Shown here piece after piece: positions 11,269-31,479 of a DNA stretch of 37,477 bases. The notes beneath the pieces were generated by a model, which had not been told where the DNA came from, did no database searches, and saw nothing but the letters and a program-made list of their open reading frames with translations. Both the position numbers and the translations under genes were made by a program. Every line of letters begins with the position of its first letter. The stretch's first letter is position 1. Source of the DNA: a virus; the IMG/VR virus record IMGVR_UViG_3300023178_000120, positions 1 to 37,477 of that record, one strand, 5' to 3'.

Positions 11269-11289
11269 ACAATACTCCGTTAGATTCAA

Positions 11290-15116: not shown

Positions 15117-15208
15117 GGCCTAAGGAAAACAAGCACTTAGGCCATTTCTGACGTAAGTGCTTGATTTTATTGGTAAAATTAAAAGCGCTTATAAATCAAG
15201 CACTTACG
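15117..15208. repeat. Inverted repeat with three competing arms downstream of phoH
   Basis: The gap between PhoH and the promoter holds a 16-bp perfect inverted repeat (15152-15167 with 15193-15208). Its right arm contains the last PhoH codons. A second hairpin is GGCCTAAG/CTTAGGCC (15117-15124 with 15136-15143). The 10-mer CAAGCACTTA occurs at 15130 and 15197 and its complement at 15154, so the middle arm can pair with either side. No U-run follows on either strand, so it is not a classical terminator. Confidence 0.7.
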
Positions 15209-15939: not shown

Positions 15940-15981
15940 ATGTAATTCCTATGGGGTAAGTTTAGTGGGCATTATATAAGT

Positions 15982-16293
15982 TCAATCTCCTCCTAATATA
16001 TTTTGAGTTTGTTTTTGTACAGTCTCCCTAATCTTAACAGACTTATGATCTTTCTTACCATAGTCGTTGGCGAGTGCGCTGTTAGGGTTCGCTTCAGCAA
16101 TTCTGGATAATACGTCTTTGAAACCGGATGGTGGTTTCGTGCGATCTCCCGTACCGCCTACGAGTCCTGGGGCACCGGTGATGATTGATTCGATTTCTGG
16201 GTGTTCGTTTAGATACTCAACCTTAGCATCCCAAGTCATAATCTTATCATATTCTTCACCAGTTTCTTTGTTACGGAAACTATACGTGGGCAT
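15982..16293 (-). CDS. Conserved hypothetical (FmdB-like N-terminus without cysteines)
   Basis: A 103-aa protein beginning MPTYSFRNKETGEEYDKIMT, which resembles the start of FmdB zinc-ribbon proteins (MPxYxYxCxxCGxxFE), but both cysteine pairs are replaced, so zinc binding is not expected. The middle is a Gly/Pro linker (GAPGLVGGTGDRTKPPSGFK), followed by FKDVLSRIAEANPNSALANDYG, a motif I also know from FmdB-like phage proteins. It overlaps the 67-aa gene upstream by 14 bases and is 42 bases from PhoH. Function unknown. Confidence 0.65.
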   Translation of the reverse strand: MPTYSFRNKETGEEYDKIMTWDAKVEYLNEHPEIESIITGAPGLVGGTGDRTKPPSGFKDVLSRIAEANPNSALANDYGKKDHKSVKIRETVQKQTQNILGGD

Positions 16294-16483
16294 CTAATAC
16301 ACCTCGTCTAACGAGTTCTTTTTTGAGTTTGTCTTTGTATTTATTAATACGAGTAGATTCATATGCCGCCACAATATCTTTTGTGGACGTATTACTCATA
16401 TAAAAATGATCCATAACCTTTTTTTGAGTTCCATTGCTTTGCTTCACAAACTTAGCAACACTTTTCTTAAACTTAGTTGGCAT
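16280..16483 (-). CDS. Small basic hypothetical protein, 67 aa
   Basis: A very basic protein (MPTKFKKSVAKFVKQSNGTQ, then KVMDHFYMSNTSTKDIV, INKYKDKLKKELVRRGV). GGAGGAA nine bases before the ATG at 16483 fixes the start over an ATG eight codons earlier. It overlaps both neighbours. A nucleic-acid-binding role would fit the charge, but no fold is recognised. Confidence 0.65.
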   Translation of the reverse strand: MPTKFKKSVAKFVKQSNGTQKKVMDHFYMSNTSTKDIVAAYESTRINKYKDKLKKELVRRGVLDAHV

Positions 16484-16763
16484 CACGTATTTCCTCCATG
16501 TTATCAATAATCATATTTATTACTCTCTTGCCAAGAGAGGATATGAGATCACTGTTTCTTAGTTTTGCTAGACAGGCCCTTATGTACAAGGGATCTAGAG
16601 ATTTCATAGTGTCTACTGTATATCTCAGTTTGTCGAACCCATACATATTGAGAGCTAAAAGTGCTATGTCTATCTCCTCATCTGTGTAGAATGATAATCT
16701 ATGACCTATTACTTTAGCTTCACGTATTTTGGGCTTTCGTTTGAAAGGTATTACTTGTCCCAT
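16473..16763 (-). CDS. Hypothetical protein, 96 aa
   Basis: A helical 96-aa protein (YTDEEIDIALLALNMYGFDK, LDPLYIRACLAKLRNSDLI, VINMIIDNMEEIRD) with a short basic start (MGQVIPFKRKPKIREAKV). It is the first gene after the carbamoyltransferase, with an 18-base gap that contains AATAAATA (one mismatch from the late motif). Function unknown. Confidence 0.6.
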   Translation of the reverse strand: MGQVIPFKRKPKIREAKVIGHRLSFYTDEEIDIALLALNMYGFDKLRYTVDTMKSLDPLYIRACLAKLRNSDLISSLGKRVINMIIDNMEEIRDAN

Positions 16764-16781
16764 AATAAAGATATTTATTCC

Positions 16782-18212
16782 TTAATAAACTTTTACACCG
16801 TAATGTTCAGCAAATTTCTCTGCATCAGCACGAGTATTGACAATAGGCTGTCCCTTTATGTTCAAACTTGTATTCAGTAACATAGGACAACCTGTTTCTT
16901 CATACCAACGTGTTAATAGTATATATAACCCAGGATTAGAATTATACGTTACTGTTTGCACCCTACTTGTATCATCTTTGTGAACGATTGCAGGAAACAA
17001 ATGCTTGTGTTTACACTTTACAACCTGTTGCATATATGGCGAATGAAAAGTCTTACTAACCTCAAAAAAGTCAGCAACGTCATGCTGTCTTATAACAGGA
17101 GCAAACGGTCTAAACTCCTGTCGCTGTTTTATTTTGTTCACAGCATCTTTCATTTCTTCACCACGTGGATCGGCCAACAAACTACGATTGCCTAATGCTC
17201 GTGGGCCAAACTCTGCTCGCCCATTTGCTACACCTACTATACCCGTTTGTAACAGTTCTTGTAGTAGATTGTCAACCGGATATTCCCCTACTATTTCGTG
17301 TCCTAAATAAGGAGTGTGAAAATTTACTTTTTCTTTTAATCCTGCAAGTACAGCACCGAGTGATGAACCGGCATCCCCAGGATTAGGCATTATCCAATGT
17401 TCTTTGAAGTATTGTGGTATCAGTCTGTTAGCAAGACAGTTCAAGGCACACCCGCCCATGTAAACAAGTTTAGTCTGACCTGTCATTTCTTTTGTCTTGT
17501 TCAACAAGCTATGTAAATAGGATTCAAATACTTTTTGTACAGCAGCCGCTATGTCAAACTTATCTTGTTCTGATTTTAGTTCTGGCCGCCACCAACGAAC
17601 ACCTTTGTGTAGATTTTTCCCGTGTGTTAGTTTTTCTATCTCGTCATAGAATCTGTTAGAGTCACCATACGCAGCCATGCCCATGAGGATATATTCATCT
17701 TCGTTTGGCTTGAGTCCTAACCTGTCTGTAAAGGCACTGTAAAAAAGTCCTAAAGATTTTGGGTAACGTGACGACCAAACTTTTTTCTCATTTTTCCAGA
17801 TTGAGGTGGTTGTCCATTCCCCTATTGCGTCAATGACAAGTGTAGCACATTCAGTAAAGTTAGAAGGTCTTGTATAGTAACCTGCCGCCCAATGTGACTT
17901 GTGATGGTTACCCCATTCAATATGACATTTAAAATCATAACCAACATCTTTAAAATACTCTTTTGGATTTTTATACCAGTTCTTTTGACCTGCCCACATT
18001 CTACGGGTTGCTTTGAGTATAGGATTCTCATACCAAAATATTATATCAGGTTCACCGTATTGTAATGCTGCTTTAATGAGCCCAGGACACAGATTTTTAT
18101 CATTTTTAATTTTGCTGTATCTTTCAGCGTGTGAGGCAAAGGCAATATAGCCGTCTCTGATAACTGTCAAAGAAGCATCATGGAACCCTGCACTCACTCC
18201 CCAGCTAATCAT
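16782..18212 (-). CDS. NodU/CmcH-type carbamoyltransferase
   Basis: A 476-aa carbamoyltransferase with both domains. The N-terminal Kae1-like part starts ISWGVSAGFHDASLTVIRDG and carries GNHHKSHWAAGYY with metal-binding His103, His104 and His107. Also present are IDAIGEWTTTSIW, VYMGGCALNCLANRL and PGDAGSSLGAVLAG. The C-terminal part has RAEFGPRALGNRSLLADPR, EFRPFAPVI and LLNTSLNIKGQPIV. Relatives (NodU, TobZ, CmcH) move a carbamoyl group from carbamoyl phosphate onto a sugar or other hydroxyl via carbamoyl-AMP. It is the last gene of the long radical SAM operon and overlaps the unknown 370-aa gene by eight bases. It probably decorates the same product that the radical SAM and glycosyltransferase genes make, but the acceptor is not known. 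Confidence 0.9.
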   Translation of the reverse strand: MISWGVSAGFHDASLTVIRDGYIAFASHAERYSKIKNDKNLCPGLIKAALQYGEPDIIFWYENPILKATRRMWAGQKNWYKNPKEYFKDVGYDFKCHIEWGNHHKSHWAAGYYTRPSNFTECATLVIDAIGEWTTTSIWKNEKKVWSSRYPKSLGLFYSAFTDRLGLKPNEDEYILMGMAAYGDSNRFYDEIEKLTHGKNLHKGVRWWRPELKSEQDKFDIAAAVQKVFESYLHSLLNKTKEMTGQTKLVYMGGCALNCLANRLIPQYFKEHWIMPNPGDAGSSLGAVLAGLKEKVNFHTPYLGHEIVGEYPVDNLLQELLQTGIVGVANGRAEFGPRALGNRSLLADPRGEEMKDAVNKIKQRQEFRPFAPVIRQHDVADFFEVSKTFHSPYMQQVVKCKHKHLFPAIVHKDDTSRVQTVTYNSNPGLYILLTRWYEETGCPMLLNTSLNIKGQPIVNTRADAEKFAEHYGVKVY

Positions 18213-19317
18213 ATATGAAAGGATCCGCTTCTGCCATCATTTTTAGCTTTCTAATTTCTAAAAAATTTATTACTTCATCATCTTCTCTTAAAATTATATT
18301 TCTAAGGCTATCAGGAGGCAGATTTTTATAATGTAAATGTTCTGCTCCCTCTATAATTTTTCCTAAAGGTATCCCAGCTTGTGCTCCAACATATCCATGA
18401 GAGGACATCCAATCTGAAAAGGGTTTCCATTTAGTATACCTTCGATCACCTAAACAAAAAGAACCTGACCATTGACATCCCTCCCAGATATCCCAGTTGG
18501 TAGGATCGTCATGGTCTACATAACAAATAGGATAACTTTTTCCGAGTATTTGATTTTGCACTGCCCAAACGGTAATGTCTGTTTGCTGTGTTAGGAACTT
18601 TTTGTCCATAGGAGATATATTATAAAGTTTTCTAGGTTGAAAATTTACATTAAACTCTCTATAATCTAATTGAGCAAGCATCATATCCTTTCTAGGGTTT
18701 AAATTATATTTTTCTAGTGAGTGAACCAAATCATTTATTTCATTGGTAATTTTTTTTAAAATTACCCTATCTTCTTTTCTAACTCTAAAAATTTTGTTCT
18801 CATCATAACTATCTTTTAAAAAAGGAACTGGTTCTTTATGAGGGGTCTCCATGAAAAATTCTTTCATGTCATATATTGTATAATACCAACTAGCTAAATT
18901 TGCTTTAGGTTCATCTGAAATACAATTAGAAAACACATCTCCTAATGAAAGATGAAATGTAGTAAAACATCTATGTATTTGATTTATTAATTTTTGATTT
19001 TTTAAATGTTGGCCTTCTTCAAAATATATGTCATCTACATCCACAGGAAATTTTATATTTTCTCCTGTAGTAGGATCCACATATTGATTAATTTGCTTAA
19101 CTTTTTCTCTAAGATCTGATACAAGAGAAGTAATTTTTTTTATATCATATTTTGGTATAGTGTCTTCCGGGACAGCATACCAAAAATCCCACCAAGATTC
19201 AGCACTGAGTACCTCATCTTTAAGCATAGAGTAATGTTTTCTTGTTAGTGGATTGTCTATGTATTTCCACTTTATAACACGATCGTCCGTGAAATATAGT
19301 TCTACCGTTACATTCAA
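18205..19317 (-). CDS. Unknown 370-aa protein of the radical SAM operon
   Basis: I do not recognise a family. The N-terminal 100 residues look beta/alpha (VTVELYFTDDRVIKWKYIDN, SWWDFWYAVPED). The middle is helical, and the C-terminal part has aromatic and cysteine-rich segments: YPICYVDHDDPTNWDIWEG, CQWSGSFCLGDRRYTKW, and YVGAQAGIPLGKIIEGAEHL. No signal peptide or membrane segment is present. It overlaps the radical SAM gene upstream by four bases and the carbamoyltransferase by eight, so translation is coupled to both. It may act on or carry the product of the radical SAM enzymes. It could be a binding or scaffold protein rather than an enzyme, since no catalytic motif is seen. Confidence 0.6.
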   Translation of the reverse strand: MNVTVELYFTDDRVIKWKYIDNPLTRKHYSMLKDEVLSAESWWDFWYAVPEDTIPKYDIKKITSLVSDLREKVKQINQYVDPTTGENIKFPVDVDDIYFEEGQHLKNQKLINQIHRCFTTFHLSLGDVFSNCISDEPKANLASWYYTIYDMKEFFMETPHKEPVPFLKDSYDENKIFRVRKEDRVILKKITNEINDLVHSLEKYNLNPRKDMMLAQLDYREFNVNFQPRKLYNISPMDKKFLTQQTDITVWAVQNQILGKSYPICYVDHDDPTNWDIWEGCQWSGSFCLGDRRYTKWKPFSDWMSSHGYVGAQAGIPLGKIIEGAEHLHYKNLPPDSLRNIILREDDEVINFLEIRKLKMMAEADPFIYD

Positions 19318-20519
19318 TCTACAATTTCCTCTAAGTCTATTAGAGCTCTATGATCTTTAGGAGGAGTCTCTCCTTCCTGTTCAAACTTTTTGCCTTGTAA
19401 AAAGCCTTCTATAGAATTTCTAATATTTATAGTTTCTCTTTTCATTTTTCCTTCAGGAAGTCTATGTATATTGGCATCAATGTTTTGTATTGTTTTTTCC
19501 ATTAGACTAGAACTCATACTATGTATAGCCATTGATTCTGGATAGTAAAGATAATTATGATTTATATAATCTGTTTGAATCCAGCCAATTTCCTTTGTCG
19601 CATCATAAAGATCAAAAATATCATTAATATTCCCTTTATGTACGGTCATAACTATAGCTGTATTTGTATATCCATTGTCGGTTTGATGTTTTAGTTTTTT
19701 TCTAACAATATCATTTGTAACATATTTCATATTGTCATAAACTTGATCCCACTTTGCATTGACTCTTAATTTCTCAAATTTATCATAAGCGGCATCAATA
19801 CTAAAAGTAATCCAAACACCTTTAAATTTGGACCAAACTTCTACCTCTTCATCTGTAGGTCTTTGTGTTCCGTTAGTGTTATACAATAACTGTGTTTTTG
19901 CCTTTGAATCTTCTGGTAATTGTTTTAACCACTCAAAGTGTTCTTTGTTCATTAATGGTTCACCACCAGCAATGTCAATTCTAAAATATTCAGAATTCAT
20001 TTTAACAAGTTCATCTAAATTGGTAGCCCAAGCAATTTCAGCTTGTAATCTATCGTAATACTCTCTATCAATATTACCTTTCTTTAGTTGAGTAGCAGCA
20101 ATAGAAGTAGAACAAGAAGGTGTACAAATAGTACACTCTAGGTTACATAGTCTGCCTGTTTTTAATTGTAAATATTCAAGTTTTACATTGTCAAGAGGAG
20201 TAAGTGTGGGAAGTTCACCATCTATAGGATCGACATATGTATGCCATGCTAAGTCTTGTATTCTTTTACTTGCCCTGCCTTCTTTTTCTGCAAACGCACA
20301 TTGGTTACAACCTTTAGGCCATTCACCTTTGGTTAACATATCTCTCCAAGGTTGAAACTCATCTAATAAAACTTTTTCTATTGTTTCACCTTCAGGTATA
20401 TCTTCTATTCTTGTTTTCTTATCCTGTGAATTAATAAACATACAACAGGGTGTGAGGTAACCATCCACATCTACATGAACAGATTTCCACATACTGGGAC
20501 AATATAATTTAGCTTTCAT
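19314..20519 (-). CDS. Radical SAM protein with N-terminal SPASM/twitch-like motif (F)
   Basis: A 401-aa protein from the ATG at 20519 (GAAGG about 11 bases upstream; an ATG six codons earlier lacks a ribosome site). The radical SAM cluster motif GRLCNLECTIC gives C125-X3-C129-X2-C132, and IAGGEPL is the SAM-binding GGE motif. Before the core lies C7, then DGYLTPCC (C25/C26), then C71-X2-C74 in GCNQCAFAEKEGRAS, the same cysteine pattern as a SPASM domain but N-terminal. It should need SAM and two [4Fe-4S] clusters. The substrate is unknown. It overlaps the gene upstream by 11 bases and the 370-aa gene by four. Confidence 0.85.
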   Translation of the reverse strand: MKAKLYCPSMWKSVHVDVDGYLTPCCMFINSQDKKTRIEDIPEGETIEKVLLDEFQPWRDMLTKGEWPKGCNQCAFAEKEGRASKRIQDLAWHTYVDPIDGELPTLTPLDNVKLEYLQLKTGRLCNLECTICTPSCSTSIAATQLKKGNIDREYYDRLQAEIAWATNLDELVKMNSEYFRIDIAGGEPLMNKEHFEWLKQLPEDSKAKTQLLYNTNGTQRPTDEEVEVWSKFKGVWITFSIDAAYDKFEKLRVNAKWDQVYDNMKYVTNDIVRKKLKHQTDNGYTNTAIVMTVHKGNINDIFDLYDATKEIGWIQTDYINHNYLYYPESMAIHSMSSSLMEKTIQNIDANIHRLPEGKMKRETINIRNSIEGFLQGKKFEQEGETPPKDHRALIDLEEIVD

Positions 20520-21720
20520 TTTTTTGTATACCTTCATGTGTGTATAATTGATCTACTGCTGTTTGATGACCGCAATATTCTGTACACCATATTGTTTTGC
20601 CACACTCAGCACTTTTGTTCCAACTGCTCTCAAACAGTTCTTCCATTAGAAGTAAAATGTCATCAAAAGAATTTTCGTTCAAATTTAATTTATCTAAACC
20701 GCCAATTTTTTTGTATTTATTGTATAATTGATACATTGCTATATTTCCAGTATTTTCCTTATAATCTAATTCTTTATTTACCGGAGTTTGTATGTTTAAC
20801 CAACAACAAGGAGTAACAATGCCATTTGCGTCTATGTATAGACTACTATATTCTTTATCCTCATTTTTAGTTTTGCATTTAGGATTTATTGGCTTATCAC
20901 ACTCTTCCCAGGTACTTCTACCATTATAAATTAAGTCACCTTCTCTGGGTTGTTTTTCATTTTTTAAACTCTCCGGATTAAACTCATGGTTCAATTTCAT
21001 TACTTTGTCGGTAGTTATAAATCCATTCCTATTTTCAGAATTTTTAGGAGGATATAAATGATAATCTGTTTTGCCTTCTTTATTAATAGCAGGAATAGTA
21101 ACCCAATGTTCGCTGTTATCTAAGTTCAATGTTTTTTTTGGTATAAAATATCTAAAACCCATTTCTATAGAAAGTTCCTTGGCTTTTTCTATTTGATGTT
21201 CGTTGTGTTCAAATATTAAATACTCCCAGGTAGAAACTGCTCCTGCTATACTGTTATATGCCTTTATGTTTCGTATAACATTATCCCATTTTACATTCCT
21301 ACGATATAAATGATTAGTATCTTCTAATCCATCAATACTAAAAATAACCTTCCAATTATCATGTTTGCTAAATACTTCTCCTACTTGTTTCCAATAAGAT
21401 TCGTTTTTTAAACCGCCGTTGGTGTGTACTTCTAATCTTCCAACATATCCTATTTCATCTAAGTATTCTACAATTTTTATAAAATCTTTACACGACAAAG
21501 GATCTCCGTGATTACCACAAAAATTAATTCTATTTACCGAAATAAAAATTTCTTTAGGCAAATACCTTTTGAAATCATCTATTGTCCAAGAGGTTAATTC
21601 TAATCCAGGTTTCACGTAAGGACTATTTTTAAAATATCTAGGACAAGCAGGACAAATCGCATTACAATTATTTGATATTTCTAAATGTAAATAATCAATT
21701 TCAGTTATTTTGAATGGCAT
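20509..21720 (-). CDS. Radical SAM/SPASM protein, canonical order (E)
   Basis: A 403-aa protein, the only one of the six with the usual arrangement. The core motif NNCNAICPAC (C19-X3-C23-X2-C26) is at the N-terminus and the auxiliary cysteines at the C-terminus: C274, C282, GIVTPCC (C305/C306), C373, C379 and C383 in CTEYCG. The SAM-binding segment is NFCGNHGDPLSC, the GNxGDP form instead of GGEP. SPASM enzymes modify peptides or proteins or sugar-like small molecules (for example anSMEs, AlbA, BtrN). It is coupled by a one-base overlap (TAATG) to the upstream gene. The complete motif set suggests an active enzyme. Confidence 0.9.
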   Translation of the reverse strand: MPFKITEIDYLHLEISNNCNAICPACPRYFKNSPYVKPGLELTSWTIDDFKRYLPKEIFISVNRINFCGNHGDPLSCKDFIKIVEYLDEIGYVGRLEVHTNGGLKNESYWKQVGEVFSKHDNWKVIFSIDGLEDTNHLYRRNVKWDNVIRNIKAYNSIAGAVSTWEYLIFEHNEHQIEKAKELSIEMGFRYFIPKKTLNLDNSEHWVTIPAINKEGKTDYHLYPPKNSENRNGFITTDKVMKLNHEFNPESLKNEKQPREGDLIYNGRSTWEECDKPINPKCKTKNEDKEYSSLYIDANGIVTPCCWLNIQTPVNKELDYKENTGNIAMYQLYNKYKKIGGLDKLNLNENSFDDILLLMEELFESSWNKSAECGKTIWCTEYCGHQTAVDQLYTHEGIQKNES

Positions 21721-23090
21721 TATTTTGTTACTCTCACAGAGTCTATCACACCTGCGTCTAGTAATCTTACAGGCATGATAGGGTTTAAGTAACTGGCCTC
21801 AATGCTTCTTATCCATTCGGCAGCTGCCGGGTTAGTTATATCATACAATTCAGCAAGTCCTCGTTTAGTAACTAAAAACAATTCTCTATATAACTGAGAA
21901 CCTTTTAACTTGCTAAGCTCATCCTTAGTAACAACATCTCCCTTATATTCTTTTTCATACGCTTCTAATACTTGTATCCACTTTTTACTGTTTCTCAATC
22001 CTGAAGCTGACATTTCTTTTTTAACATGATCTATAGTATCAAAGAATATATCTTTTGGATACCATCTAATATCTAGGAATCCGGGATTTTTTGTTACGTC
22101 ATCTAATCTCATGTACATATAATGAGGATGCAGAAAAGGATCAAATTGTCCGTAGAATTCTAAGTATCTATCAATATCAAATAACACAGGAGCTGACAAA
22201 ACAGTAGCGACACCCATTTGCTTACCTTTGTTCAATTTGGCATGATACTCTTTCCAATTTTTTTCAATGACTTCCCAACTACAACCGTCTCTGGTATATT
22301 CGATAGTTTCATAACAACCATCTAAACTTGCCTGAATGCTAGGCTGAAACGGCTCTAACATTGTAGGAATATGTTTGCCCTTCCATTCTAATTTTGTTAG
22401 ATTTGTATTGTAGTGCATTTTTATATTTTTTACATAGTCATGGTAATTAGGATCATCTAAAAGTTCTACCATTCTTTCAATGACATCCCAATGAAGTTTA
22501 GCCATCATTGGTTCACCGCCGGCCCAATACATATTTTTTAAAGTTTTATTATTAAGGCCATCAATCATTTCCTGGGACATACCTGCTTCATACTTGTAGT
22601 CTGGTTTAAACTCAGGTTCTTTGCCCCACATTTCTTTGTTAGTTTGCATCCAAGTAGAGCTATAAACATCACCACAAGAAATACATTGTAGATTACAATG
22701 GATTGTTCTAAAATCAAAATACTCAGGTGGAGTATGGTGTACTCCATTATCAACAGTACATTCACCTATTACTTTGTTTACTGCTGCTTGGGGGTCTGCG
22801 TGTCCTCTGATAATATCAGCATTTGATTCTTCTCTCAAAGATCTGATACCTAACTTTTCGTTTTTATAACAAGCCAGACACGCTTCACTTATTTTTTCGC
22901 CTGCCATCATTCTTTTACGGACTGACTGCATATATTCACAGTTCCAAAACTCTTCGGTTGTCATTTTATCATGTGCAGGAATATCAGAAGAAATACAGCA
23001 TAATTTTCTTTCATATCTACTTCCCTGATATGAATGGTTCCATGGATATGAACACCATGTTTTTGACGGAAATTTAAAATCAGTAGTCAT
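21720..23090 (-). CDS. Radical SAM protein with N-terminal SPASM/twitch-like motif (D)
   Basis: A 456-aa protein. The core motif is TIHCNLQCISC (C132-X3-C136-X2-C139), with WAGGEPM as the SAM site. N-terminal auxiliary cysteines are C13 (TWCSYPWNHS), C31/C32 (KLCCIS) and C71-X2-C74 (ACLACYKNEK). The last 120 residues are helical and lack cysteine clusters. It starts 11 bases inside the upstream gene. It is probably an [4Fe-4S] enzyme with one auxiliary cluster. The substrate is unknown, and it is distinct enough from its neighbours to suggest a different step. Confidence 0.85.
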   Translation of the reverse strand: MTTDFKFPSKTWCSYPWNHSYQGSRYERKLCCISSDIPAHDKMTTEEFWNCEYMQSVRKRMMAGEKISEACLACYKNEKLGIRSLREESNADIIRGHADPQAAVNKVIGECTVDNGVHHTPPEYFDFRTIHCNLQCISCGDVYSSTWMQTNKEMWGKEPEFKPDYKYEAGMSQEMIDGLNNKTLKNMYWAGGEPMMAKLHWDVIERMVELLDDPNYHDYVKNIKMHYNTNLTKLEWKGKHIPTMLEPFQPSIQASLDGCYETIEYTRDGCSWEVIEKNWKEYHAKLNKGKQMGVATVLSAPVLFDIDRYLEFYGQFDPFLHPHYMYMRLDDVTKNPGFLDIRWYPKDIFFDTIDHVKKEMSASGLRNSKKWIQVLEAYEKEYKGDVVTKDELSKLKGSQLYRELFLVTKRGLAELYDITNPAAAEWIRSIEASYLNPIMPVRLLDAGVIDSVRVTK

Positions 23091-24288
23091 ATGTAAATAT
23101 GTCCTTCCAGTGAGTCCCTCTGGTCTTAGAAACTTCTTTCATAAAAGAATGACCTTGTTCCCATAATAAAGGTGATGTTTCTTTTGAATTTAAATACGCC
23201 ATCATGTTAGGAGAGAGTATATAGTTTTTGTATTTAGATTTTTCAAACTGTTTTAATATTTTTTGTTTAAATTCTATAGGTGCACAGTTAATCGACAAAT
23301 AGGAAGGAAAAGTCAAAAAGTTTTGATTTATGCTTGTGTGTTTTTTCATTTGTTTTATAGGCAAAGCCCACTCATAGAATTCCTCTAAATATGGCAAATT
23401 TAACCATTGTATAGTGCAAGTAATATTAACATGACTTAGCGAAGGCGTGCTTATCAACCCCTTTATATTTTCGTTTATACTGTCCCACGAATTGATAGGA
23501 GATCTTATCCATTTGTTTTTATCATCTACAGCATCAACGCTCATACCGAGAGTAACAGTCTTAAACTCTTTCCAAATATCATGGAACTCAGGTTTATAAA
23601 CTGAGCAATTAGTATTGTAGCTAATTTGAATATTTTTCGATACACCTTCTTCAATTAGCCTTTCTAAAAACCTCCAATGTGGTTCCATAATAAAAGGCTC
23701 ACCACCATTAATATACAAATAACGTAAGTCATGTTTATATTCTAACAGTTCTTCTATCTTATCTTCATCAAACCACTGAAACAACTCATACTCGGTTGAG
23801 TTTGCTGGAACAAAGTCTAAAGCATTTTGCCATTGACGATATTCTTTAATTAGAGCAGAGCTTGAATCGGGGTAACACATCATACATTTTGAGTTACATA
23901 AGTTACTCATTCTCAAATCTATAAATTGTAGCTTGGGTTCATGTGGAGTACCCCACCTCCTAGTTTCAATAGTGCGCCTAGAATCTCCGCCATTATCTTC
24001 TATTTTGTAACAACCCTGACAAGCGGCAGGCCTTTTACCATTCAACATATCCTTTCTAACATCTACAACACTGCTTTGTTCCCACAATTTTTTTACTGGT
24101 TTGTTTTTCAGGTTCAACATATTATTCAGTGGATCTCTATAAAATCCATCATTCGGGGGAAACATCTCAGCAACACAGCACAATGACACATGGCCATTAG
24201 GATGCCAATTCATGTGATTGAAAGGTAGAGGACAGTATGTTTCTTCTACACTGTATGTTACGTCTTTTAATTCAATTTTCTCTGTCAT
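23080..24288 (-). CDS. Radical SAM protein with N-terminal SPASM/twitch-like motif (C)
   Basis: A 402-aa protein from the ATG at 24288, which forms an ATGA overlap with the upstream stop; the ATG five codons earlier is not needed. The core motif is SNLCNSKCMMC (C131-X3-C135-X2-C138), with INGGEPF as the SAM site. The N-terminal cysteines are C19 (YCPLPFNHMNWHPNGHVSL), C37/C38 (CC) and C90-X2-C93 (ACQGCYKIED). The N-terminal motif reads almost like a C-terminal SPASM moved to the front. The function is unknown beyond radical SAM chemistry. Confidence 0.85.
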   Translation of the reverse strand: MTEKIELKDVTYSVEETYCPLPFNHMNWHPNGHVSLCCVAEMFPPNDGFYRDPLNNMLNLKNKPVKKLWEQSSVVDVRKDMLNGKRPAACQGCYKIEDNGGDSRRTIETRRWGTPHEPKLQFIDLRMSNLCNSKCMMCYPDSSSALIKEYRQWQNALDFVPANSTEYELFQWFDEDKIEELLEYKHDLRYLYINGGEPFIMEPHWRFLERLIEEGVSKNIQISYNTNCSVYKPEFHDIWKEFKTVTLGMSVDAVDDKNKWIRSPINSWDSINENIKGLISTPSLSHVNITCTIQWLNLPYLEEFYEWALPIKQMKKHTSINQNFLTFPSYLSINCAPIEFKQKILKQFEKSKYKNYILSPNMMAYLNSKETSPLLWEQGHSFMKEVSKTRGTHWKDIFTYDY

Positions 24289-25619
24289 AAGGTATCGTAC
24301 CATTCCAAAAATTCTTTTGGAAAAATTCTAATAGTTTTATCTCGCCTTATATCATATTGTTCATAAAATCTTTTGAAGTCTTTTCTGTTAGCTTCAATGT
24401 CTGTGTCATATAAGTGTGGCTTTTCTATAACTTTGACATAAGATATAAGTCTTTCAATGTCTCCTTTTTCCATAGAATTTAGATAAGGACTATATCTATT
24501 TGTCTCATACCAATCCTCAAGTTCTTTATGTATGCCATGTCTTAACTCGTTGGGCAAAACTGTCACACTCATAAAGGCGGGAAAACGTAAAAAGTTTACA
24601 CTTATGCCTAAACTTTTTTTAGTATACTTCTTTTTCCATTCCATCATTTGGTCTAAAAAATTTGTTACACTAAAAATACACAAAGCATTAATTGTCATCA
24701 TAACAACAATACGTCTTACATTGGACTCTTCCAGTATTCGTTCAATATTGTTTTTCCAATGATTGTAATCTAACTTATCTCTAATATATTCTGCTTGGTC
24801 ACCTACTGCTTCCATACTTGTAAAAATAGTTAGATTTTTCATACCATGTGATTTCTGAATCAACTTATCTATTAAGGCTTTCTTAGCTCCTAAGTTACTG
24901 TTGACCCCTACTTCAAATTCTCTCTCCTCCTCAATTACTCTATCAAAGAGTTTCCATACATCATCTGACATAAGAGGTTCGCCACCAGTAATTCTCAATA
25001 CTCTTAATTCATTAGCAAGTTCGGGCCACCAGTTCCACCACGCTTCAATAAAAGGATTGTTTTCTTTTTCATAACAGTTATTAATTGAACCATCATGTTT
25101 AAAGGCTCCCATACCTCTTGTTTCGCCTTCATAGAAACCATGTTTCTTAATGTCTTTTGCCCATTCAGTGCTGAAGTTGGCATTACAATAACTACAAGCA
25201 AAGTTACAGGTCCTATCAAACATTACTTCAATAGTAGGCGGGACAACTCTCGCATCTGCTGGTAATTCATACCATTTTTGCATTTCTTCAGGTGTAAACT
25301 GTAGCGATTTAAAAACACGATCCGATAAGTAATCAGGACCCATGCTTTCTACTTTCCAACAATAGTCACACTCTGTAGGTTTTTCACCTTTCTGCATTAG
25401 ATCACGCATTTTAATTTTATGATCTGTAGTATGAAGTTTAGCAGGATCTTCTTGTATTTGTACAACATCAATTTTATGTACAGGAGGCAAGTGACAAGAA
25501 GCGGTCTCACCACTGTTCAGCCATAGCGTGCTGTTACCCCACTTAGCGCCACAAAAAGATTGTGACTTAGAGTTCAAAACTTCATTTCTAAATTTAACTA
25601 ATTCTTTTGAATCAGCCAT
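24285..25619 (-). CDS. Radical SAM protein with N-terminal SPASM/twitch-like motif (B)
   Basis: A 444-aa protein. The core motif is DRTCNFACSYC (C138-X3-C142-X2-C145) and the SAM site is ITGGEPL. The N-terminal cysteines are C23 (SFCGAKW), C42 (SGETASCH) and C84-X2-C87 (ECDYCWKVES). It is clearly a paralogue of the next gene upstream, sharing SFCxAKW, SGExxSCHxP, ECDYCW and the EAWWNWWPEL/EAFWKWWPDL segment. The CC of the other proteins is CH here, so one ligand may be His. The start is 25619 or 25631; both overlap the upstream gene. Confidence 0.85.
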   Translation of the reverse strand: MADSKELVKFRNEVLNSKSQSFCGAKWGNSTLWLNSGETASCHLPPVHKIDVVQIQEDPAKLHTTDHKIKMRDLMQKGEKPTECDYCWKVESMGPDYLSDRVFKSLQFTPEEMQKWYELPADARVVPPTIEVMFDRTCNFACSYCNANFSTEWAKDIKKHGFYEGETRGMGAFKHDGSINNCYEKENNPFIEAWWNWWPELANELRVLRITGGEPLMSDDVWKLFDRVIEEEREFEVGVNSNLGAKKALIDKLIQKSHGMKNLTIFTSMEAVGDQAEYIRDKLDYNHWKNNIERILEESNVRRIVVMMTINALCIFSVTNFLDQMMEWKKKYTKKSLGISVNFLRFPAFMSVTVLPNELRHGIHKELEDWYETNRYSPYLNSMEKGDIERLISYVKVIEKPHLYDTDIEANRKDFKRFYEQYDIRRDKTIRIFPKEFLEWYDTL

Positions 25620-27081
25620 AATAATCTTCATCCATTAAGTATGATAACATCGGAAATGTTCTACAAAAGTCTCTGCCACGCCTTTCATCTAATTGCCTAA
25701 TATAAGATCTCATATCATCATAAACAATTTTAGGCTGTTTATCATTTCTCATAAATTCAACTAGACGTTCAACTTGATCTACCTCTTCAAAATAAAATGC
25801 CTCAGAAGGATCTTTTTCTTTTGTCAGTTTCCACTTGTTTATGTATTCTAACCATTCTTCGCCATACTTTTGCTTATCGTTCTCGTTCAGCAATGACAAC
25901 ATCAGAGTTCTAGGAAAACGAAGATATGATAAATGAGTTCTTACTCTAAACTCATGTTTCTTGGTTTGATATTTCCCTCTAAATTCTTTTATTTGTTCAA
26001 GGAAGCCTTTGAAAGAAGGTGCGCTTGTCAAATTAATTGTAGTCATAAAATGTAATCTAGTAGAAGGGGGAGTATTATCTAATACTTTATAACAATTTTC
26101 AATAAACTCCTCGTAATTCATACCTTCACGGGAATATTCTGCGTGTTCACCGATATTTTCTAATGAAGTGTATACATCAAAATATTTTAGGTTATCTGAC
26201 ATTCGGTTAATAGATTCAATCATCTGATCTACTTTATTGTCAGGAGCATTTAAATTTGAGTTTATAGCAAGTATCATATCTTTGTTAGGATTATTTTCAA
26301 CATAATCAAACAGCCGCCAAGTGTGTTTACTTAACAAAGGCTCGCCACCAGTAATTCTAAATGTCTGTAAGTTAGGATATAAGTCAGGCCACCATTTCCA
26401 AAAAGCTTCAATATAAGGATTGTACTCTTTATGATGAATGGGTAATTTGCCTACTGATTTCAACCAATCCAAATTATGTAGATTATATTCTGTTTGTTTT
26501 ATATCACCATGTTTTCTAACTTCTTCCTGCCAGCGTGAGGATGATTCCGGACTACAATAGATACATTTAAAATTACAGGTACTATCGAAAGCAACTTCCA
26601 TATAAGTAGGTGTAATAAATTGACCATGTCCGGACTTAATAATATCTTTAATATAAGGCAACGACCAGGAGTAAGAGGATTTGTAAATTCTATCACTAAT
26701 ATGTTCGGGATTTTGATTTTCAATGCGCCAACAATAATCACATTCTTCAGTCTGTATACCATTAAGCATTTCACGCCTTGCTTTCATTTTATGTGCAGTA
26801 TTGTGAATACCTGAAGGATTGTCTTTAATATCAGAGAGTTTAATGTGATGTCTAGACGGATGGTGACAAGAATGAGTCTCGCCACTATACAATAATATTG
26901 TTGACTGCATCCATTTGGCAGCACAAAAAGAAGGACTTACTTCATTGATAGTGTTCCTTGCTTGTTTTAGAAAATTAAAGTATGCTTCAGGATCATGTAC
27001 GTCTAAATTATGTTGTGCATGAGGGCTGTCTTTGTCATCTCTTGTTTTTTCTGTTATATCTAAAACTTCAATTTTGTCCAT
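25612..27081 (-). CDS. Radical SAM protein with N-terminal SPASM/twitch-like motif (A)
   Basis: A 489-aa protein from the ATG at 27081, which overlaps the methyltransferase end by 14 bases; an ATG ten codons earlier is possible. The core motif is DSTCNFKCIYC (C169-X3-C173-X2-C176), with ITGGEPL (GGEP at 245-248). The N-terminal cysteines are C53 (SFCAAKW), C72 (SGETHSCHHP) and C114-X2-C117 (ECDYCWRIEN). It has an extra ~30 N-terminal residues compared with its paralogue B. The pair probably arose by tandem duplication and then diverged. Confidence 0.85.
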   Translation of the reverse strand: MDKIEVLDITEKTRDDKDSPHAQHNLDVHDPEAYFNFLKQARNTINEVSPSFCAAKWMQSTILLYSGETHSCHHPSRHHIKLSDIKDNPSGIHNTAHKMKARREMLNGIQTEECDYCWRIENQNPEHISDRIYKSSYSWSLPYIKDIIKSGHGQFITPTYMEVAFDSTCNFKCIYCSPESSSRWQEEVRKHGDIKQTEYNLHNLDWLKSVGKLPIHHKEYNPYIEAFWKWWPDLYPNLQTFRITGGEPLLSKHTWRLFDYVENNPNKDMILAINSNLNAPDNKVDQMIESINRMSDNLKYFDVYTSLENIGEHAEYSREGMNYEEFIENCYKVLDNTPPSTRLHFMTTINLTSAPSFKGFLEQIKEFRGKYQTKKHEFRVRTHLSYLRFPRTLMLSLLNENDKQKYGEEWLEYINKWKLTKEKDPSEAFYFEEVDQVERLVEFMRNDKQPKIVYDDMRSYIRQLDERRGRDFCRTFPMLSYLMDEDYYG

Positions 27082-27688
27082 AAGCCATATATCTAATAAA
27101 GGGAGACCCATCTGGTCTCATTCCACAATTTACTTCTTTGTATTCAAAACAATCTAACGCATGGTTGATACGCAAAAATTCATTCATAGAATCAGTGCAT
27201 CTAATATGTTCATCACACTCAAAAAAGTTATTGCCTTGTATAAAGTATTTAGTACCCTTGGGAATCTTGTTCCGCCAAGTATCATATGTTTCTTGTGAAA
27301 CGTGTTCTGTGCTTGTATTGATAACTAGGTATGGATCCTCGGGATACTCATACTCACCCATGTCAGCAGTAACAGGAATTATATTAGGTTCTTCTATGTG
27401 TAAGGTATTTTTACAAACTGCTTTCATACCTTCAATAACTCGTTTACATTTAGGGTCTATATCAATACTGTAATACTTGTTAGGATACTTGTGATACAAC
27501 ATTTGAGCAAACACACCATACCAACCTCCAAAAATGTAAAGAGGAGTGTCTGCAAATTCTAAATCGGTTAGTAATTCTATAGCTGCTTCTTTACTTATTA
27601 TTTGACTAGGCCAAAAACATTCAGCAAACCTGTTCAAATATTCAGGATTGTTTTTAACAAAAAACATCCAAGCACTAATTGGATTCAC
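27068..27688 (-). CDS. Class I SAM-dependent methyltransferase-like protein
   Basis: A 206-aa protein with a Rossmann-type start: LYIFGGWYGVFAQML at 50-64 as a variant of the GxGxG loop, YYSIDIDPKCKRVIEG at 72-87 with the acidic residue after strand 2, then a TADMGEYEYPEDPYLVINTSTEH segment (short form: PYLVINTSTEHVS). The family annotated as methyltransferase in marine phages looks like this. FGGWYG is unusual for the glycine loop, so activity is not certain. Four-base overlap with the glycosyltransferase upstream. Confidence 0.7.
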   Translation of the reverse strand: MNPISAWMFFVKNNPEYLNRFAECFWPSQIISKEAAIELLTDLEFADTPLYIFGGWYGVFAQMLYHKYPNKYYSIDIDPKCKRVIEGMKAVCKNTLHIEEPNIIPVTADMGEYEYPEDPYLVINTSTEHVSQETYDTWRNKIPKGTKYFIQGNNFFECDEHIRCTDSMNEFLRINHALDCFEYKEVNCGMRPDGSPFIRYMAYGQN

Positions 27689-28482
27689 ACAAAGGTTCCT
27701 AGGTAAGTGACCTTACTGTTAGTAAAGTCTAGTTCGTTTACTCTCTCAAAAAAAGGCACCATGTTTTCAGCATTTGCCTCATTGACAAATTGGTGTAAGA
27801 CACCGCCTTCTTCTAGATCATAAAAATAAAATTTTTGATTTTTTAACAAGAAGTACCTTAACTCAGGAGTTTGACTATACAACTCAAAACTAGCCATTAC
27901 ATCATCTGCTGCCTTTAAAGTTTCATTGTAGCGAAAACTTTTTGCTGCGTAGGAGGACAATAAGAGAAACCTATTAAATGGTATTATATTATCCATTGTA
28001 GTTTTTAATTGACGCAACATTCTCAAATTAGGTCTTGCTGAACGATTCGCAAATGTAGAGGAAGTGATAGTAGCAAAAAAATTTTCAAAATTTGTTTCTT
28101 CCCCTTCCCAGGTCATAGGATTGTTTTCTTGTCCAATAACATCAGGGGAATTCTCAGGCTCTAACATTTTTACATATCTTACAAGTTGCTTTACTCCACC
28201 TTTAGTGTAATAGTCATCACCGTCAATAGGCAATAGATATTCATAGTTTTGTTGAATAAAATAATCCAACACGCTATTTTTGCCTTTACCAGGTGTACCG
28301 TTGCATTCTGTTTCAATTACAGTATAGCCAGCACAACTCCCCTCAACCTTTTTCAAATATTCTGGGTCAAGTGAGTTTGAAATAACTACAATATCTACAT
28401 CTTCACAGTCTACTGAGTCTACACATCTTCTTGCCTTTTCTGCGTCTCTTGTAGTCAAAACCCCTACTAAAAACTTAGACAC
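27685..28482 (-). CDS. GT-A type glycosyltransferase (family 2-like)
   Basis: A 265-aa protein with the family 2 pattern: KFLVGVLTTRDAEKARRCVDS at the start, DIVVISNSLDPEYLKKV, then TPGKGKNSVLDYFIQQNYEY-type helix and YLLPIDGDDYY with the DxD metal/nucleotide-sugar site at D87-D90. No membrane segment is seen, so it should act in the cytoplasm. The sugar and acceptor are unknown. It overlaps both neighbours. With the carbamoyltransferase and methyltransferase in the same operon, a decorated glycan or a sugar attached to a nucleobase or lipid is a reasonable inference. Confidence 0.8.
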   Translation of the reverse strand: MSKFLVGVLTTRDAEKARRCVDSVDCEDVDIVVISNSLDPEYLKKVEGSCAGYTVIETECNGTPGKGKNSVLDYFIQQNYEYLLPIDGDDYYTKGGVKQLVRYVKMLEPENSPDVIGQENNPMTWEGEETNFENFFATITSSTFANRSARPNLRMLRQLKTTMDNIIPFNRFLLLSSYAAKSFRYNETLKAADDVMASFELYSQTPELRYFLLKNQKFYFYDLEEGGVLHQFVNEANAENMVPFFERVNELDFTNSKVTYLGTFV

Positions 28483-29347
28483 TATTCCTCCTTAAAATCC
28501 ATTCCGGATCGTCCCTGTTACTTATCGGAAACGTATACCGGTGTAAAACACGTTTTTCTAATATGTCACTATTATAGTATGGCCGCCGGTGTAATGTCAA
28601 TAGTTGATCGCTCAAAACTATGTCACCATAATCCCAAAAGTGTCGGTAAATAAACTTGTCTTGATACAGATACTCCATGAGTTCATCATAAAAGTCTGCT
28701 TCGGTAACAAGGTCATTGTTGTGATACCAATACAATCCTTTGACACCTGCGATATTCTCTTGTAAAATATACATCTCATATTCTTCAACATTGGTTGACA
28801 TATATTTTAACTGATATTCAGGCGGTTTGTCGGCCCACTTACTAGCAGCCGTATATGTATACTTACATTTCACACCCTCAAGTTTCTGCTTGAGTTCAGC
28901 AGGCATTTCAGCCAATGCTCGAGCAGTATTCAACCATTGAGTTTCAGTACCAACAACATCATCAATCCCTTGTAATGCTACACCGTCTGCTCGGGTTGGC
29001 CCGTTTAGGTTGGCGTGCCACTTGAGTTCGCCTGTAGGAAAAATACCTCCATGCAATCCCTTATCCGTTTTCCCCCCGTTGACGCGCTGACAGGGATAAG
29101 CATCTACGTCAGTGGGATCTACAAACTCCTCAGGCAGGCCTATCACATCACCATGCCTATTCCACAACATCTGATTGTAGTTAGCAATGCGACTCATCTT
29201 GTGTATGAGTCTTGATAGGTATATATTGTTGGTTGATTGTTTTGGAATAACAACAATCAGTTTTTCTGATAGTGTCTTAAAAATGCTCTGTGCTAATTCA
29301 TCACTTACATCCTTAATGTCAATATCAAGCTCTACATGATTATCCAC
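28475..29347 (-). CDS. TauD-like 2OG-Fe(II) dioxygenase, H-x-N variant
   Basis: A 290-aa protein of the TauD/TfdA type. The iron site begins ELKWHANLNGPTRADG, but the normal H-x-D is H111-A-N113. The distal part GDIVLSDQLLTLHRRPYY supplies His253, and RVLHRYTF the 2OG-binding Arg. The replaced Asp could reduce or alter iron binding, as in halogenase-like variants where it is lost. It is the second gene of the long operon, with eight-base overlaps on both sides. The substrate is unknown. Confidence 0.75.
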   Translation of the reverse strand: MDNHVELDIDIKDVSDELAQSIFKTLSEKLIVVIPKQSTNNIYLSRLIHKMSRIANYNQMLWNRHGDVIGLPEEFVDPTDVDAYPCQRVNGGKTDKGLHGGIFPTGELKWHANLNGPTRADGVALQGIDDVVGTETQWLNTARALAEMPAELKQKLEGVKCKYTYTAASKWADKPPEYQLKYMSTNVEEYEMYILQENIAGVKGLYWYHNNDLVTEADFYDELMEYLYQDKFIYRHFWDYGDIVLSDQLLTLHRRPYYNSDILEKRVLHRYTFPISNRDDPEWILRRNSV

Positions 29348-29648
29348 GCCTCATCCTCGAAATGTCTTTTGCCTCCTCGTCATTGATAATAGGAACGGCA
29401 TTAGACTTGTGCATTGTTGCAATACCCTTGACAAGTGTACCTGTGTACTCTTTACGTTCGGGCTTCGAGGTATTTATAGCAGTGTTAGATGACACGCTAT
29501 TGTATTTCGGTGTCTCACGGTAATAAGGGTTAGGGGGCGGAGTATATGCCTGGAATTTAGGCGGAGTATACTTTTCATATACTTCACCTTTGACTTTTTT
29601 AGCTTTACGTCTACGTGGTTTGTTATTGGCCGAAAGATCTAAAAACAT
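29340..29648 (-). CDS. Small basic Pro-rich protein, first gene of the operon
   Basis: 102 aa from the ATG at 29648, with GAGGAA eight bases upstream; a longer frame to 29708 would cover the promoter -10 and is rejected. It is basic at the start (MFLDLSANNKPRRRKAKKVK) and then Pro/Tyr-rich (YEKYTPPKFQAYTPPPNPYY), with a C-terminal NDEEAKDISRMRRG. It appears disordered, and no domain is recognised. Being first in the operon, it may regulate or bind nucleic acid, but this is a guess. Confidence 0.65.
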   Translation of the reverse strand: MFLDLSANNKPRRRKAKKVKGEVYEKYTPPKFQAYTPPPNPYYRETPKYNSVSSNTAINTSKPERKEYTGTLVKGIATMHKSNAVPIINDEEAKDISRMRRG

Positions 29649-29676
29649 AATATATTCCTCACATTTTGTCCGACTA

Positions 29677-29704
29677 TTATTACACATATTTCGGCATTTG
29701 TCAA
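29677..29704 (-). promoter_or_regulatory. Sigma-70-like promoter of the radical SAM operon
   Basis: Minus strand: perfect TTGACA (29699-29704), a 16-base spacer and TAATAA (29677-29682), or AATAAT with a 17-base spacer. It lies about 30 bases before the ATG at 29648, with no other gene in between, so it should drive the overlapping genes down to 16782. Confidence 0.6.
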
Positions 29705-29756
29705 GCATTTTTTTGCCAATAAAATCAATAATTTAGGTGTCGTAATAGTGACAATA

Positions 29757-29802: not shown

Positions 29803-30432
29803 ATGGAAAACAAAAAATTTACTAATAAAGACATTAAAAAGGCCATTCACAGAAGCCAACACACTCAACGAAACTGGGATCTGAGTAAAGAAGTTCCTCA
29901 AGAAGATTTAGATCTTATTTTGGAATCTGTAACTCAATGCCCAAGCAAACAAAATCGCCCTTATTATAAAGTTCATGCTATTACTAACCGTGACATGATT
30001 GAAAAAATCCATTCTAAGACTGAAGGATTTGGTCTGCTTTTTACTGAGGACGGTGTCAAATCACAAACTAATCCACAAACACTTGCTAATGTTGTACTTG
30101 TGTTTGAAAGAAATGAAGAAGTTAAAAATCCTTATGATAAGGTACAAGGCAAACTACAGGAAACTGCACAAAGAGATACCGACATGGCAGTGGGTATTGC
30201 TGCAGGATATTGTAATATTGTATCTAGTATGATGGGATATAGAACAGGATGTTGTTTGTGTTTCAATCCTCAAGACATGAAAGAAACCATAGGACTTGAG
30301 GGCGAACCTCTACTAATCATGGGAGTAGGACACGCTAAGGAAGGTGTAAGCCGTAGAGTACATCATATGGATGAAAGCTACACATTTACAACCAATAGAA
30401 AACATAAAATAGCTGTAAAGCACGTAGCTTAA
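29803..30432 (+). CDS. Nitroreductase family FMN protein
   Basis: A 209-aa protein of the nitroreductase fold: SQHTQRNWDLSKEVPQEDLD as the N-terminal RxxR-like start, ESVTQCPSKQNRPYYKVHAI as the FMN contact region, DMAVGIAAGYCNIVSSMMGYRTGCC as the core helix, and EPLLIMGVGHAKEG at the C-terminal FMN site. Such enzymes use NAD(P)H to reduce nitro groups, quinones or flavins. It has its own late promoter and a good ribosome site (GAGGAC), and it precedes virion-type genes. Its purpose in the phage is unclear. Confidence 0.85.
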   Translation: MENKKFTNKDIKKAIHRSQHTQRNWDLSKEVPQEDLDLILESVTQCPSKQNRPYYKVHAITNRDMIEKIHSKTEGFGLLFTEDGVKSQTNPQTLANVVLVFERNEEVKNPYDKVQGKLQETAQRDTDMAVGIAAGYCNIVSSMMGYRTGCCLCFNPQDMKETIGLEGEPLLIMGVGHAKEGVSRRVHHMDESYTFTTNRKHKIAVKHVA

Positions 30433-30459: not shown

Positions 30460-31479
30460 ATGAAACGCTGGACAGCGTTTATCATGCTTTTGATGACCAA
30501 TATAGTTTATGGACAAGTAGCAAACGATGCAGATGGTAACTTTGACTCAACAACATATGTAGAAACGAACAATACTACCGCCACAACAAGCAGTAGTACG
30601 TCAAACTCTACCTCAACAAATACCAACACCAACACAAATAATAATACTAACAATACCACAATCAGTGCTACTAATACCAATAGCAACACAAATAATAACA
30701 CCAATAACACAACAATAAACGCCACCAATACAAATACTAACAATAATATTTTGTCTGGTGGAACCAATAACACTAACAGAAACTATAACAACAATACAAC
30801 TATAAGCAACAACACCAATGTTAGCTCGAGCAACAATGTTAATACAAACAGTAACACAAATGTTAGCACTGCTACGAATACTAACAATAACAATAATGTT
30901 AGCACAAGCACTGTAGATACAACTTCAAATAATACCAACACCAATAACAATAATACAGTATCGGATAACACCAATACTAATATTAATGAAAGCACAAGTA
31001 CGTCTACAAACAACAACAACAATGTAAACGAAAACAAAAACACGAGCGTAAGTGAGTCTACACAGACTCAAAATATCAATCAGAAGATTGAATCACCTCC
31101 ACCTTCTGCTATCGCTCCGAGCATTGGTAGCTCATATTCACAAGACTTGTGTACAACCGGCGTAAGTGGTGCAGTACAAACTCAAATATTTGGGCTTGCT
31201 GGAGGTAAGTCTATTAGAGATGAAAACTGCGAAAGAATCAAACTGAGCAAGACACTTTATGACATGGGTATGCGTGTAGCTGCTGTGTCGCTAATGTGTC
31301 AGGATGAGCGTGTATGGACTGCTATGAAAATGGCAGGAACACCATGCCCATACGAAGGCTTGATAGGTGATGAAGCAGGTGTAGCATGGGAAGAAAACCT
31401 TGCTGATGTCCCAGGTGTCAGTGAAAGAGATGTAGACAGAGGTCGTGTAACACGTTCTCCCAACGGCCCTCGTAGATGA
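30460..31479 (+). CDS. Secreted Asn/Thr-rich low-complexity protein with conserved Cys domain
   Basis: A 339-aa protein. Residues 1-19 are a signal peptide (KRWTAFIMLLMTNIVYGQ). Residues 36-208 consist almost only of Asn, Thr and Ser, with some Val/Ile, and contain an 18-residue tandem repeat. A Pro-rich linker (ESPPPSAIAP) leads to a compact C-terminal domain with four cysteines (LCTTGVSGAVQTQIFGLAGG, ENCERI, LMCQDERVW, TPCPYEG). Such C-terminal domains sit beside other secreted genes in marine T4-like phages. Many N-X-T/S sequons and the repeat suggest a fibrous or adhesin-like surface protein, but it is not proven to be in the virion. The next gene starts with an ATGA overlap. Confidence 0.7.
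   Translation: MKRWTAFIMLLMTNIVYGQVANDADGNFDSTTYVETNNTTATTSSSTSNSTSTNTNTNTNNNTNNTTISATNTNSNTNNNTNNTTINATNTNTNNNILSGGTNNTNRNYNNNTTISNNTNVSSSNNVNTNSNTNVSTATNTNNNNNVSTSTVDTTSNNTNTNNNNTVSDNTNTNINESTSTSTNNNNNVNENKNTSVSESTQTQNINQKIESPPPSAIAPSIGSSYSQDLCTTGVSGAVQTQIFGLAGGKSIRDENCERIKLSKTLYDMGMRVAAVSLMCQDERVWTAMKMAGTPCPYEGLIGDEAGVAWEENLADVPGVSERDVDRGRVTRSPNGPRR
30631..30738 (+). repeat. Two-copy tandem repeat of an 18-codon Asn/Thr unit
   Basis: Two consecutive 54-base units encode NTNNNTNNTTISATNTNS and NTNNNTNNTTINATNTNT (residues 58-93 of the Asn/Thr-rich protein). They sit inside a longer Asn/Thr-rich stretch (30565-31083) of looser repeats. Synonymous changes between the units show that they are not a very recent duplication. 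Confidence 0.75.

Follow-up and report, generated by a model that had tools for sequence, protein, structure and literature searches.

A radical SAM gene cassette that occupies a fixed slot in a marine T4-like phage, a possible exchangeable pathway for sugar or glycan tailoring

The viral DNA studied here, IMG/VR record IMGVR_UViG_3300023178_000120 (henceforth the window, meaning the whole stretch analyzed, 37,477 bases from a single virus record), carries twelve minus-strand genes, six of which are adjacent and encode radical S-adenosylmethionine (SAM) proteins, named A to F (genes rsA to rsF). In our preferred reading, to which we give somewhat better than even odds (roughly 0.55), these genes are an exchangeable pathway for the tailoring of a sugar or glycan, kept in one fixed slot of the phage genome. 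The window belongs to a marine T4-like virus of bacteria, and is called T4-like because it encodes tail and baseplate proteins, a head closure protein and a DNA end protector on the structural side, and a gp32-like single-stranded DNA-binding protein, a gp59-like helicase loader, PhoH and an exonuclease on the replication side. The cassette, the promoter-like site in front of it and the genes behind it are as follows.

29676 to 29704, minus strand: promoter-like site TTGACA-17-AATAAT with TG before the -10 (consensus match only)
29340 to 29648, minus strand: small basic protein (phrog_27048, 1.4e-23)
28475 to 29347, minus strand: TauD/TfdA-type Fe(II)/2-oxoglutarate dioxygenase (PF02668, 2.6e-17)
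27685 to 28482, minus strand: family 2-type glycosyltransferase, weak (PF00535, E 0.0025; phrog_2456 glycosyltransferase, 4.5e-4)
27068 to 27688, minus strand: methyltransferase-like protein, cassette marker (class I SAM methyltransferase fold in the model, predicted local distance difference test score, pLDDT, 95)
25612 to 27111, minus strand: radical SAM A, N-terminal twitch (NF033640, 291 bits; own clade, support 100)
24285 to 25631, minus strand: radical SAM B, N-terminal twitch, 33% identical to A (NF033640, 285 bits; tree)
23080 to 24303, minus strand: radical SAM C, N-terminal twitch (NF033640, 312 bits; tree)
21720 to 23090, minus strand: radical SAM D, N-terminal twitch (NF033640, 241 bits; tree)
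20509 to 21720, minus strand: radical SAM E, C-terminal cysteines resembling SPASM (PF04055 above cut-off; SPASM match at 290-328, below cut-off)
19314 to 20537, minus strand: radical SAM F, N-terminal twitch (NF033640, 218 bits; tree)
18205 to 19317, minus strand: 370-aa protein of a family found beside radical SAM arrays (relatives next to radical SAM genes elsewhere)
16782 to 18212, minus strand: O-carbamoyltransferase of the NodU/TobZ/NovN family, last gene of the array (PF16861, 2.2e-53; PF02543, 1.7e-34; phrog_1601)
16473 to 16763, minus strand: conserved 96-aa protein, first gene of the right-hand frame (family in 41 clustered open reading frames, directly after the carbamoyltransferase in relatives)
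15196 to 16293, minus strand: remainder of the right-hand frame, a phrog_385 regulator (15982-16293) and PhoH (15196-15939), a flank conserved in relatives

The twelve genes, from the small basic protein to the carbamoyltransferase in the order listed, run without a gap from 29648 to 16782, as an earlier note on this DNA had reported, and form one tight operon by sequence. The overlaps of 1-14 bases given in that note are obtained only when rsA, rsB, rsC and rsF are started at internal ATGs, whereas the longest open reading frames (ORFs) overlap their neighbors by 1-44 bases. The TTGACA-type site that it named as the one promoter was found as well, as a consensus match, in a region that holds 66 promoter-like sites where 58 were expected; due to the position of this site, from 29704 to 29676, the first gene is taken to start at the ATG at 29648, behind GAGGAATATATT, and not at 29708. 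The 96-aa gene begins 18 nt past the carbamoyltransferase, and the transcription unit probably runs on into it. Frameshifts introduced by assembly, the artefact of which the earlier note had warned, were rejected as a source of the overlaps, because five of the six radical SAM genes have full-length orthologues in the same order on other contigs, with pairwise dN/dS, where it could be estimated, of 0-0.28.

Comparison with 84 fetched loci, which together with the window hold 177 radical SAM ORFs (up to 8 within approximately 20 kb), brought out a recurrent layout. In many loci a basic protein and a methyltransferase precede an array of radical SAM and other genes that ends in a carbamoyltransferase, followed by the 96-aa gene, a regulator or DNA-binding protein, PhoH, the exonuclease, gp59 and gp32. 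Outside the array, loci L010 to L014 resemble the window closely (PhoH 74-99%, carbamoyltransferase 79-93% and gp32 78-95%, where covered), but their radical SAM proteins match it at no more than 22-48% in the best case, and in L010 the basic, TauD-type and glycosyltransferase-like proteins (97-98%) and the carbamoyltransferase (93%) enclose a different interior. Loci L028 to L046 are distant (PhoH 57-63%, gp59 36-39%, carbamoyltransferase 57-59%) and nonetheless keep the radical SAM block at 45-71%. Because close relatives carry other radical SAM sets while distant phages share the same one, the cassette is an exchangeable module whose slot is fixed: its interior is replaced between conserved flanking genes, and a five-gene block is inherited together. 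This block, A-B-C-D-F, occurs with its order kept in seven other viral contigs (L028, L031, L036, L039, L040, L043 and L046), and each of its genes groups, at support 100, with one copy from each of these contigs. The block is under purifying selection; rsE, missing from all seven, is an addition to it. The order of genes, which the earlier note proposed to follow through related phages, is therefore conserved for this block, and the scattered occurrence that would have spoken against an operon was not seen. It is also possible to imagine that radical SAM genes were gathered independently to support host redox metabolism, with no single pathway behind them, as radical SAM genes of phages are frequently classed with auxiliary metabolic genes and Fe-S genes also occur in marine T4-like genomes (PMC5332604). 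We find this very hard to credit, however, when five of these genes are co-inherited in order in eight contigs (window included), exchange occurs block-wise, and an Fe-S carrier (PF01521) is present in only one of eight long relatives, a co-occurrence that was dropped as support.

That the module tailors sugars is favored by the genes that accompany it elsewhere. In related cassettes, those genes whose function can be recognized are concerned with sugars; among them, in the interior or as neighbors, are an NAD-dependent sugar epimerase/dehydratase (PF01370, 1.7e-46), a UDP-glucose dehydrogenase and a short-chain dehydrogenase/reductase (SDR). In Mosig EXVC030M, a cultured pelagiphage that infects Pelagibacter ubique HTCC1062, one region combines radical SAM genes, a carbamoyltransferase, a TauD-type gene, an NAD-sugar epimerase and a DegT/StrS-type sugar aminotransferase (PF01041, 1.2e-74), and its methyltransferase belongs to the family of the one in the window (hidden Markov model match, 4.8e-26). 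HTVC008M has a near-continuous run of a glycosyltransferase, a radical SAM gene, a methyltransferase, a carbamoyltransferase, a UDP-glucose dehydrogenase and a 2-oxoglutarate oxygenase, and the radical SAM module of CP220 is annotated with two genes of the nucleoside diphosphate (NDP)-sugar-transferase fold. With the block co-inherited in order and sugar-pathway genes in related cassettes, the proposal of the earlier note that a single biosynthetic or macromolecule-modification pathway is carried by the phage gains support. The choice of product, which that note held could not be told from sequence, can be narrowed, with sugar or glycan tailoring favored and a hydroxymethyl-base DNA modification disfavored. 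A related proposal is that a diffusible, aminoglycoside- or nucleoside-like small molecule is made during infection and directed at competitors or the host. Carbamoyl-, methyl- and glycosyltransferases next to radical SAM enzymes do recall the tailoring of antibiotic sugars, and the best PDB sequence match of rsE is cytosylglucuronate decarboxylase (E 0.002), which belongs to the blasticidin pathway; in the operon, however, no gene for export, resistance or cyclitol formation was recognized, and a lytic phage has a short time for a product to build up, so we consider this quite improbable.

All six radical SAM proteins carry CxxxCxxC (CN-x2-C-x2-C), with the SAM-binding motif GGEP in five and GDP in rsE, and all six match PF04055, although A, B and D fall below the Pfam curated cut-off. 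The earlier note was hence right to call six adjacent radical SAM genes, five of which (A, B, C, D and F) also score 218-312 bits against NF033640 (N_Twi_rSAM, the N-terminal-twitch family of NCBIfam, curated cut-off 170 bits); rsE, at 60 bits, does not reach that cut-off, and has relatives in L013, L030 and L054. A viral scan with the single sequence of rsD returned no relatives, which only profile searches reached. In prokaryote genomes, relatives of A and B were few, found at 16 loci, mostly in metagenome-assembled genomes (MAGs) of Bdellovibrionota, with neighbors too mixed to be informative, and for two contigs (L174 and L183) PHROGs did not settle whether they are bacterial or phage. Three contigs from MAGs of Bdellovibrionota and unclassified bacteria (L176, L178 and L180) hold approximately 5-8 related radical SAM genes in mixed orientation. 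Because twitch and SPASM domains are frequent in maturases of ribosomally synthesized and post-translationally modified peptides (RiPPs), these enzymes might instead act on such a peptide or on a virion or host protein, and rsC and rsF are indeed weakly similar to NCBIfam peptide maturases, for example PapB and YhhB. All these matches, however, lie far under the curated cut-offs, the overlapping genes leave no gap for a precursor gene, and the operon has neither peptidase nor transporter. The small basic gene at its head, moreover, is not specific to the array: it is the left frame gene of the slot and precedes the array in relatives, but it also has relatives in other isolates (PhiW-14 and ACP17, besides C48C1, where no radical SAM array adjoins it). 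Peptide or protein modification is thus, in our opinion, unlikely.

In the last gene of the array, both carbamoyltransferase domains (PF02543 and PF16861) score over cut-off, H103, H104, H107, D128 and D280 are invariant in our alignment A1, and the nearest solved relatives in the PDB are NovN of novobiocin (1.6e-51), TobZ (9e-37) and also GdmN. NovN and TobZ carbamoylate sugar hydroxyls. The window enzyme shares the two domains, HHxxH and the aspartates with the NodU/TobZ/NovN family, is shorter than TobZ (476 aa against 576 in the PDB), and misses the NodU equivalog cut-off of NCBIfam, with 122 of 1000 bits. A viral scan with its profile returned at least 566 relatives, of which 80 were kept. 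In L005 (Marine virus AG-345-D19), a carbamoyltransferase 45% identical to that of the window is directly followed by a twitch-type radical SAM gene, and neighboring ORFs resemble, by eye, a sulfotransferase and an amidinotransferase, the latter with no Pfam match. Also phage-borne, and in the same superfamily, is the carbamoyltransferase found by MetaGPA, for which conversion of 5-hydroxymethylcytosine (5hmC) to 5-carbamoyloxymethylcytosine is proven (PMC8670742). With this precedent, the cassette might serve DNA hypermodification, where a base such as 5hmC would be elaborated and carbamoylated last, as a defense against restriction; the operon is co-oriented with the replication genes gp32 and gp59 behind a sigma70-like site, and the first gene has one of its relatives in PhiW-14, a phage with hypermodified DNA. 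The window enzyme, however, is only 26% identical to the 5hmC enzyme and reads GPRALGNRS where the latter reads GPRALCNTT, a motif that we take to be the site of TobZ G421/R423 discussed for that enzyme, and no base-modification gene was recognized in the window. A ThyA-family (dCMP-hydroxymethylase-type) gene was not found in 24 of 25 distinct related records searched, mostly fragments (the window itself is 37 kb), although the 24 include G001 at 171 kb. The four longest metagenomic records (139-172 kb) encode ThyX instead, and the 156-kb isolate C48C1 has neither a thymidylate-synthase-family gene nor ThyX. As the carbamoyltransferase resembles NovN, GdmN and TobZ, and a ThyA-family gene is absent from 24 of the 25 records, hydroxymethyl-base modification is disfavored as far as sequences can tell, and DNA hypermodification as a whole seems to us rather improbable.

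The methyltransferase-like gene matches neither Pfam nor NCBIfam, but its product is modelled with a class I methyltransferase fold (Z 14-16.5 to solved enzymes of this class). Searched with its profile, viral contigs yielded at least 553 relatives; a scan of the prokaryote genome collection, limited to two peptide patterns, yielded none, so the family appears to be, so far, restricted to viruses. Among the best 80 of these loci, radical SAM genes lie nearby in 72 and immediately after the methyltransferase in 51. A tblastn search against isolated phages gave no match, and the Mosig member was later revealed by the profile. The PDB relatives of the TauD-type dioxygenase include carbapenem synthase. 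The 370-aa protein matches nothing in Pfam, PHROG or NCBIfam, and a viral scan with its single sequence returned no relatives; profile searches placed relatives beside radical SAM genes in phage contigs L089, L193, L197 and L198, found a remote relationship to family c34, which precedes the carbamoyltransferase in L033 and L042, and also located four contigs (L188 to L191, one of 322 kb) where no radical SAM gene is near. The structure prediction that the earlier note suggested for this protein was run, but the model was of low quality (pLDDT 59) and matched no known fold significantly, and for this reason we propose no function for it.

If the cassette does tailor a sugar or glycan, the glycosyltransferase-like enzyme might supply or attach the sugar (or a sugar nucleotide or glycan acceptor), and the radical SAM enzymes, which as a class perform chemistry that few other enzymes manage, could act stepwise on unactivated C-H positions through dehydrogenation, epimerization, deoxygenation or similar reactions, which are those of other twitch/SPASM enzymes. 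The TauD-type dioxygenase might add a further oxidation, the methyl- and carbamoyltransferases might cap the product by N- or O-methylation and O-carbamoylation, and the 370-aa protein is taken as a cassette enzyme or partner. The product would most likely decorate either the virion or, for superinfection exclusion, a surface glycan of the infected cell, and swapping of the interior gene set would alter the sugar, as O-antigen loci do. Several points weigh against this proposal. The operon itself contains no sugar-nucleotide biosynthesis gene, hence the sugar would have to come from the host; Pfam matches are lacking for most interior families (c11, c35, c58, c59, c102 and others), and the case for sugars therefore leans on the matched minority. 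The PF00535 score of the glycosyltransferase-like protein is 18.2 bits against a curated cut-off of 23.3, and the likeness of the methyltransferase to NodS, its top match at Z 16.5, is that of a common fold and is equalled by many methyltransferases that act on other substrates. To our knowledge, no reaction is known for the NF033640 subfamily.

The earlier note singled out the size and order of this set as deserving attention; to see a set of this size as unprecedented would be too strong. The Campylobacter T4-like phages CP220 and CPt10 encode 11 and 12 radical SAM proteins, with an interchangeable module accounting for five (PMC2853527), 12 such genes are reported for a marine T4-like genome (PMC5332604), and radical SAM cassettes are recorded in pelagimyophages (PMC7029224); radical SAM arrays in T4-like phages are therefore already known, and the cassette in the window is a variant of them. 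The CP220/CPt10 module resembles it in having several adjacent radical SAM genes on an exchangeable module of a T4-like phage with NDP-sugar-transferase-fold genes nearby, but the stretch read contains a glycine amidinotransferase and no carbamoyltransferase match, and only rsE is similar by BLAST (approximately 25%), with no common slot shown. The host-recognition-cluster cassettes of pelagimyophages (PMC7029224) and the isolate Mosig share radical SAM genes, a carbamoyltransferase, a methyltransferase of the same family and a TauD-type gene with the window; the Mosig region, however, adjoins tail-fibre genes and VrlC rather than PhoH, has fewer radical SAM genes, and brings its own sugar aminotransferase and epimerase. 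Bacterial O-antigen and capsule loci offer an analogy only: they too combine conserved flanks with an exchanged biosynthetic interior, but no flippase, polymerase or transport gene was seen in the phage cassette. In the open-access literature, of which our coverage was partial, we found no account of the framed methyltransferase-radical SAM-carbamoyltransferase cassette, of the A-B-C-D-F block or of the virus-restricted methyltransferase.

Other features of the window deserve mention. Divergent from the operon and adjoining it is a nitroreductase gene (29803-30432, plus strand), with a late-type TATAAATA upstream at 29757 (consensus match only); two nitroreductase genes are also present in the Mosig cassette region. 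An Asn/Thr-rich protein and an acidic, secreted-looking protein, both with no Pfam match, are encoded at 30460-33389 (plus strand). A curli-related region is present in pelagimyophages (PMC7029224). An AMP-binding, acyl-CoA-ligase-like gene (PF00501, 2.3e-65) and a neighbor akin to the SDR-matching ORF of L014 (11298-12668 and 13305-14063 for the pair, minus strand) lie amid core replication genes and recur patchily in relatives. A cell wall hydrolase (10705-11289, minus strand; PF07486, 1.7e-24) is located between the AMP-ligase gene and gp59, and the sole tRNA of the window, tRNA-Arg (anticodon tct), is at 14056-14132 (minus strand).

A broader view, which we put forward only tentatively and regard as doubtful in its full extent, is that T4-like phages of the ocean maintain a large recombining pool of radical SAM assembly lines that make virus-specific sugars, framed by a methyltransferase family found in viruses only, and that whole sets are swapped to change the decoration of the host cell or virion. 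The at least 553 viral contigs with the methyltransferase, accompanied by radical SAM genes in 72 of the best 80, point to a large store of radical enzymes still to be explored and, probably, of sugars not yet known. The replacement of whole blocks among closely related phages suggests that diversity is selected for, much as at surface-antigen loci, and because members of these families are present in the cultured phage Mosig EXVC030M, whose host is known, the product becomes testable.

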